Below, piece by piece: positions 2,322 through 18,701 of a DNA stretch of 41,452 nt. This DNA is from Candidatus Vogelbacteria bacterium. Its GTDB lineage: Bacteria; Patescibacteriota; Minisyncoccia; Phycocordibacterales; UBA12445. The notes below the pieces were generated by a model. The model was given only the letters and a program-made list of their open reading frames with translations, was not told the DNA's origin and did not search any database. The stretch spans positions 1 to 41,452 of the forward strand of contig JACQCV010000018.1 of assembly GCA_016201465.1 (NCBI GenBank), read 5' to 3'. How positions within the stretch are numbered: position 1 is the first letter of the stretch; the number at the start of each line of letters is the position of its first letter. The translations under genes were made by a program, and so were the position numbers.

Positions 2322-2414
2322 TCGGGGCGCCGGGATTTGAACCCGGAGTCTCATGAACCCGAATCGTGCACCTGCCTGCCGGCAGGCAGGTGTTACAGTT
2401 ACACTACCGCCCCG
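2322..2414 (-). tRNA. tRNA-Pro(CGG) with a palindromic insertion, possibly defective
   Basis: On the minus strand the acceptor halves CGGGGCG and CGCCCCG pair fully with discriminator A, which is typical of tRNA-Pro. The T-arm is CCGGG-TTCAAAT-CCCGG. The anticodon arm CACGA-TTCGGGT-TCATG gives anticodon CGG with T33 and G37, and has one C/A mismatch. The gene is 93 nt long. Between the D-stem (GTGT/ACAC) and the anticodon stem lies CCTGCCTGCCGGCAGGCAGG; without these 20 nt the length is 73, normal for a tRNA lacking CCA. The D-loop (AACTGTA) lacks the usual GG pair and there is an extra base before the D-arm. It could be an active tRNA with a hairpin insert, a spliced one, or a pseudogene. 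Confidence 0.72.
2369..2392. repeat. palindromic repeat element, copy 1 (inside tRNA-Pro)
   Basis: A perfect 24-nt palindrome, CA + CCTGCCTGCCGGCAGGCAGG + TG. The 20-nt core recurs exactly at 27996-28015. In one frame it encodes CLPAGR, a peptide I remember from spurious ORFs in CPR genomes. Confidence 0.85.
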
Positions 2415-18673: not shown

Positions 18674-18701
18674 AAAAAACCGCCAGGTTTAAACCTGGCG
18701 G
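18674..18701 (-). terminator. terminator of the methyltransferase gene
   Basis: Stem CCGCCAGG (18680-18687) with CCTGGCGG (18694-18701); on the minus strand it is followed by six T. Confidence 0.9.

Follow-up and report, generated by a model that had tools for sequence, protein, structure and literature searches.

The window (the whole stretch of DNA analysed here, 41,452 nt from a Candidatus Vogelbacteria bacterium) carries a tRNA-Pro(CGG) gene interrupted by a 20-nt palindrome (Table 1). Read on its own strand, the gene is CGGGGCGGTAGTGTAACTGTAACA-[CCTGCCTGCCGGCAGGCAGG]-TGCACGATTCGGGTTCATGAGACTCCGGGTTCAAATCCCGGCGCCCCGA with the insert in brackets, and CCA is not encoded. On the uncut locus, ARAGORN reported a tRNA-??? 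at 2321-2414 with a four-base 'ccgg' anticodon, and the Rfam tRNA score was 29.8 bits against a gathering cut-off of 29; in a cmscan of the locus with Rfam, only tRNA scored above gathering and no intron family was reported. When the 20-mer was deleted, ARAGORN called a standard tRNA-Pro(CGG) with a 73-nt body, as expected from the initial annotation, which had described a normal tRNA of this length once the core is removed. The perfect 24-nt palindrome and the exact 20-nt copy elsewhere in the window that it had listed are both present. With a purpose-built tRNA-Pro model, whose training set includes the window sequence with the insert taken out, the locus with its insert scored 62 bits and the tRNA-Pro of the congener (G001) 89.6 bits.

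Table 1. Features of the interrupted tRNA-Pro(CGG) locus and the second palindrome copy (window coordinates)
Feature	Position	Strand	Details
tRNA-Pro(CGG) gene	2322-2414	minus	length 93 nt, or 73 nt once the insert is removed; anticodon 2359-2361
Inserted palindrome core CCTGCCTGCCGGCAGGCAGG	2371-2390		20 nt; 24 nt palindromic with flanks (2369-2392); identical copies elsewhere
Extra base at acceptor stem/D-stem junction (8/9)	2407	minus	relative to relatives, from alignment
D-loop	2394-2400	minus	AACTGTA vs AACGGTA in relatives; U for G18 at 2397; from alignment
Anticodon arm region	2354-2366	minus	C29-A41 mismatch (2366 and 2354); from alignment
5' arm of 22-bp inverted repeat	2408-2429	minus	15-nt leader (2415-2429) and acceptor 5' strand
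3' arm of 22-bp inverted repeat	2308-2329	minus	acceptor 3' strand, A73 and 14-nt trailer
Second exact palindrome copy	27996-28015		20 nt; gap between surrounding reading frames

Alignment with relatives, which are without the insert, places the empty site between A24 and T25, within the 3' strand of the D-stem, and not between the D-stem and the anticodon stem as initially annotated; taking out the 20 nt restores this site. The family member L002 (genome G004) reads ...GGTAACATACACGATTCGGGTTCGTG... (ACAT-A-CACGA) where the window reads ...TGTAACA[20]TGCACGATTCGGGTTCATG..., the first C of the palindrome can stand in for base 25, and no target duplication is visible at the 24|25 insertion. Judged by its length, the 24-nt palindrome is unusual to a moderate degree only: in 10 mononucleotide-shuffled versions of the window, the longest palindromes measured 14-20 nt. 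Chance is ruled out by the exact repeat and by the abundance of the 20-mer in other genomes, compared with 0 matches for a reversed-pattern control in the same sample of the phylum. Another perfect palindrome, of 22 nt (CCGCCAGGTTTAAACCTGGCGG), is located at 18680-18701 of the window.

Since the 20-mer recurs at 27996 and has exact matches in 65 of the 287 sampled genomes of the phylum (0-23 copies per genome), CCTGCCTGCCGGCAGGCAGG is a dispersed palindromic repeat. The genome of the window contains two exact copies and one with 2 mismatches. At 20 loci (21 copies) drawn from the phylum-scan listing, one per genome and not at random, the palindrome was mostly intergenic, with some copies within open frames. 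One copy (L258:1501-1520) lies within an 840-codon open frame, as if tolerated by a protein gene, and another (L264) is close to a tRNA-Cys gene in what by eye appears to be a tRNA remnant. A tRNA remnant was considered for the copy at 27996 and rejected: it aligned with a best score of 34, no higher than that of random window segments, and ARAGORN finds no tRNA there once the palindrome is deleted. A literature search on the palindrome sequence returned no relevant report.

The same 20-mer also interrupts other tRNA genes. A scan of ~85,000 species genomes for the palindrome with a T-arm motif 3-33 nt downstream yielded 60 stretches with 64 matches, from Bacteroidota, Patescibacteria, Omnitrophota, Elusimicrobia, Ignavibacteria and Verrucomicrobia; because the T-arm was in the query, these counts show recurrence and not a preference for tRNA genes. 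By eye, most of the stretches are tRNA genes or tRNA copies and a few resemble chance. The insertion sites include the D-loop/D-stem junction (GGATA|GAGC), the anticodon loop (TTCTAA|GCTGG of Arg-TCT), position 26 and the vicinity of the T-loop, and three loci (L079, L108, L112) contain two palindromes each. Deletion of the 20-mer gave an ARAGORN tRNA call across the junction for 24 of the 64 matches, a few of them with the wrong isotype (e.g. L101, L102, L121). In the order to which the window belongs, such an interruption was found in only 2 of 397 genomes, that of the window and G066, whose matched stretch is identical to that of the Vogelbacteria record L120. On a viral contig (L313:2239-2330), an otherwise normal tRNA-Met(CAT) carries this 20-bp palindrome within the variable loop and is still called by ARAGORN. 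The earlier proposal that a mobile palindrome hit the tRNA is thus well supported by a dispersed family that interrupts other tRNA genes at other sites and leaves an intact tRNA upon deletion. Since an intact tRNA of the same isotype adjoins the interrupted copy in many of the 60 loci, a redundant copy is the usual victim there.

At 17 of the 60 loci, an upstream frame terminates with the C-terminal motif known from small GIY-YIG proteins, and four of five such C-terminal stretches compared with Pfam matched PF01541. In Bacteroidota, the order intact tRNA, GIY-YIG gene, palindrome-bearing remnant of the same tRNA is frequent. Small GIY-YIG genes adjoin tRNA genes at L072, L083, L090, L095, L099, L111, L116 and others, and a coordinate comparison in G002-G004 placed ~7 of 19 stand-alone GIY-YIG matches within ~160 nt of a tRNA. 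A literature search on GIY-YIG with tRNA genes in Bacteroidetes returned no relevant report. With their remnant after a small GIY-YIG gene and an intact same-isotype tRNA upstream, the Bacteroidota loci resemble GIY-YIG homing endonucleases near tRNA genes (phage T4-type SegB). The genome of the window, in contrast, has no GIY-YIG gene near the interrupted tRNA; its sole GIY-YIG match lies in a 424-codon open frame, presumably UvrC, and a GIY-YIG link was on this ground rejected as the cause at this locus. More broadly, tRNA genes might be a favoured landing place of the palindrome across several phyla, because small tRNA-linked GIY-YIG nucleases would cut tRNA genes and repair would leave palindromes or hairpins behind, and some of the resulting tRNAs, perhaps that of the window with its covarying leader-trailer helix, might still be made with an extra arm; we regard this proposal as speculative and rather doubtful.

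The body of the interrupted tRNA differs from its relatives in three further respects (Table 1). First, it has an extra base between the acceptor stem and the D-stem. Second, G18 of the D-loop is gone while G19 is kept, so that the GG pair, described initially as lacking, is only half lost. Third, the anticodon stem contains the mismatch that had been noted, identified here as C29-A41. The extra base, like the 22-bp inverted repeat described below, had escaped the initial annotation. Meanwhile, the acceptor stem, the T-arm and the anticodon loop are perfect. Among the features of a functional tRNA-Pro, C1-G72, A73, CGG in a 7-nt loop and a consensus T-arm are present; a cloverleaf with intact D-arm, anticodon stem and G18G19 is not, because the insert lies in the D-stem, G18 is lost, the anticodon stem has a C-A pair and a base is added. 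In the predicted fold of the RNA, the 10-bp palindrome hairpin recruits D-stem bases and no anticodon arm forms; even without the insert the predicted minimum-energy fold is not a cloverleaf, while L002 is predicted to fold as one, folding programs being weak evidence for tRNAs.

Whether the CGG isoacceptor is needed bears on the fate of the gene. The sole sampled congener (G001, 97% complete) carries a single strong tRNA-Pro, with anticodon UGG, and lacks a CGG counterpart; a strict pattern for tRNA-Pro(CGG) matched 86 of the 397 genomes in the order, indicating that this isoacceptor comes and goes. In the 74%-complete assembly of the window, neither a second intact tRNA-Pro(CGG) nor any other tRNA-Pro was found. 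The combination that had been proposed as the mark of a simple pseudogene, sister genomes without a trace of the element plus a second intact tRNA-Pro(CGG), is therefore seen only in its first half, the congener showing no remnant of the gene. The UGG gene of G001 sits in a cluster with Leu(CAG), Arg(TCG) and Gly(GCC); the window's assembly contains none of these four genes, and their joint absence suggests one assembly gap rather than loss. Since CCG makes up 85 of the 368 Pro codons in the long open frames of the window, a CGG isoacceptor would have work. A neighbouring exonuclease-like gene, sought in G001-G004 for synteny, gave no match at E 0.001, and the empty site was therefore not located in the family by this route.

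The gene is enclosed by the perfect 22-bp inverted repeat, which lengthens the acceptor stem by 15 bp. Among the tRNA-Pro(CGG) genes of the order, 15 of 87 (17%) reach a score of at least 7 for an extension of this kind, compared with 0.6% of mismatched leaders and trailers whose partners came from different genomes. In an alignment of 12 genes, that of the window included, both sides have changed in 13 of the 15 helix pairs, and the share of cells that pair is 95%, versus 70% when shuffled and 43-50% when slid; as the rows were picked for pairing, the comparison with mismatched partners is fairer. In most rows the helix starts at U-1:A73. Helices of roughly 12-16 bp were seen on tRNA-Pro(CGG) in the window, L015, L160, L186, L192, L194-L197 and L216-L218. 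Base pairing between the leader and the 3' RCCA end, which lengthens the acceptor stem, is reported to inhibit a binding step of bacterial RNase P, the formation of its catalytic complex (PMC9433436). The perfect pairing in the window argues against an old pseudogene. By eye, whole tRNA genes with flanking inverted repeats also appear to be nested in tRNAs of the same isotype (L064, L118, L186, L015, L232, L236, L217), with a tRNA-Met in a D-loop at L064 and L118, and a tRNA-Pro in the anticodon loop of a broken tRNA-Pro at L186, L015 and L236; a literature search on nested tRNA genes returned no relevant report.

Insertion of a dispersed palindrome as the origin of the interruption is well supported. 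The fuller reading that we prefer, and consider reasonably likely, is that a non-autonomous palindrome hit a dispensable tRNA-Pro(CGG) gene that is now decaying. A widespread 20-bp palindrome, moved in a non-autonomous fashion, would have inserted between positions 24 and 25 of an accessory gene, and the insertion could be tolerated if tRNA-Pro(UGG) reads CCG by wobble, which would make the CGG isoacceptor dispensable. In the RNA, the stable extra hairpin would compete with the D-stem and, combined with the other changes of the body, would probably render the tRNA useless in translation, leaving the gene to decay. Loss of function, raised initially as one possibility, is the likelier consequence because a CGG isoacceptor is missing from the congener, three other defects affect the body and the predicted fold is poor; the tRNA has thus probably lost its role in translation. 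Weighing against decay are the perfect acceptor stem, T-arm and anticodon loop, the fully paired leader-trailer helix, the absence of any other tRNA-Pro from the assembly and the share of CCG among the Pro codons.

Alternatively, the cell may still produce and use this tRNA, in which the palindrome would form an additional hairpin arm between D-stem and anticodon stem, its first C completing a GTGT/ACAC D-stem. The perfect acceptor stem, T-arm, anticodon loop and leader-trailer helix are consistent with this, as is the viral tRNA-Met, and inserts in tmRNA and RNase P RNA genes of Rickettsia have been described as possibly neutral (PMC2229807). However, the loss of G18, the extra base at 8/9, the C-A pair in the anticodon stem, the congener without the gene and the poor predicted fold make an extra arm unlikely, if still worth serious consideration. 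It is less probable that the locus is kept as a hairpin RNA, with the 22-bp leader-trailer and acceptor helix under selection and the tRNA body degenerating or otherwise used. The helix is perfect in the window and covaries in relatives while the body is defective, but in the relatives the tRNA-Pro genes enclosed by the helix look normal and some lie next to other tRNA genes, the congener is without the locus, and Rfam reports only tRNA.

Some bacterial 23S rRNAs have intervening sequences that are cut out, leaving pieces held by base pairs. Excision of the hairpin from the transcript by an RNase III-like enzyme, giving a two-piece tRNA held together in the same manner, would suit the predicted 10-bp hairpin of the insert; this is very unlikely, as 10 bp is short for RNase III and no bulge-helix-bulge or intron core is evident in the 20 nt. 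Misjoining of the palindrome into an intact tRNA during assembly is hardly credible: although the assembly has 44 contigs and two identical palindromes lie on the contig of the window, the join is base-exact, similar interruptions occur in many independent assemblies, and the other body defects would be left unexplained.

Turning back to the preferred reading, insertion into a gene now decaying, the nearest published precedent that we found is the Rickettsia palindromic elements (RPE), which are intergenic and also inside tmRNA and RNase P RNA genes (Delihas 2007, PMC2229807, citing Ogata et al. 2002). RPE are peptide-encoding units of 105-146 bp with 12-bp inverted repeats (PMC2229807). Like them, the repeat described here is small, dispersed, palindromic, without a gene of its own and found within RNA genes; unlike them, it consists of nothing but a perfect 20-bp palindrome, is unrelated in sequence, sits in tRNA and extends over several phyla, and with its 20-bp unit and relatives in Patescibacteria it falls outside the RPE. 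REP/BIME, ERIC, RUP and NEMIS are likewise short palindromes or inverted repeats scattered through bacterial DNA and probably mobilised in trans, REP/BIME by a REP-associated tyrosine transposase (RAYT), but have other sequences and lengths than CCTGCCTGCCGGCAGGCAGG; in the small-repeat review consulted (PMC2229807), tRNA insertion is not mentioned for them. Group I and archaeal-type tRNA introns also interrupt tRNA genes, but the present insert is 20 nt long in one predicted 10-bp hairpin, lies at 24/25 and not in the anticodon loop, and has no evident ribozyme or bulge-helix-bulge, which sets it apart from tRNA introns.

Small palindromes were known in stable RNA genes of Rickettsia, and here a 20-bp palindrome recurs in tRNA genes or their remnants in several phyla, part of these recurrent cases lying beside tRNA-linked GIY-YIG genes. 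The leader-trailer helix on pre-tRNA-Pro(CGG) provides a separate lead on tRNA maturation in Patescibacteria. The interrupted genes form a concrete set that can be counted, on which to study the movement of minimal palindromes and how a tRNA survives or dies from an extra arm.
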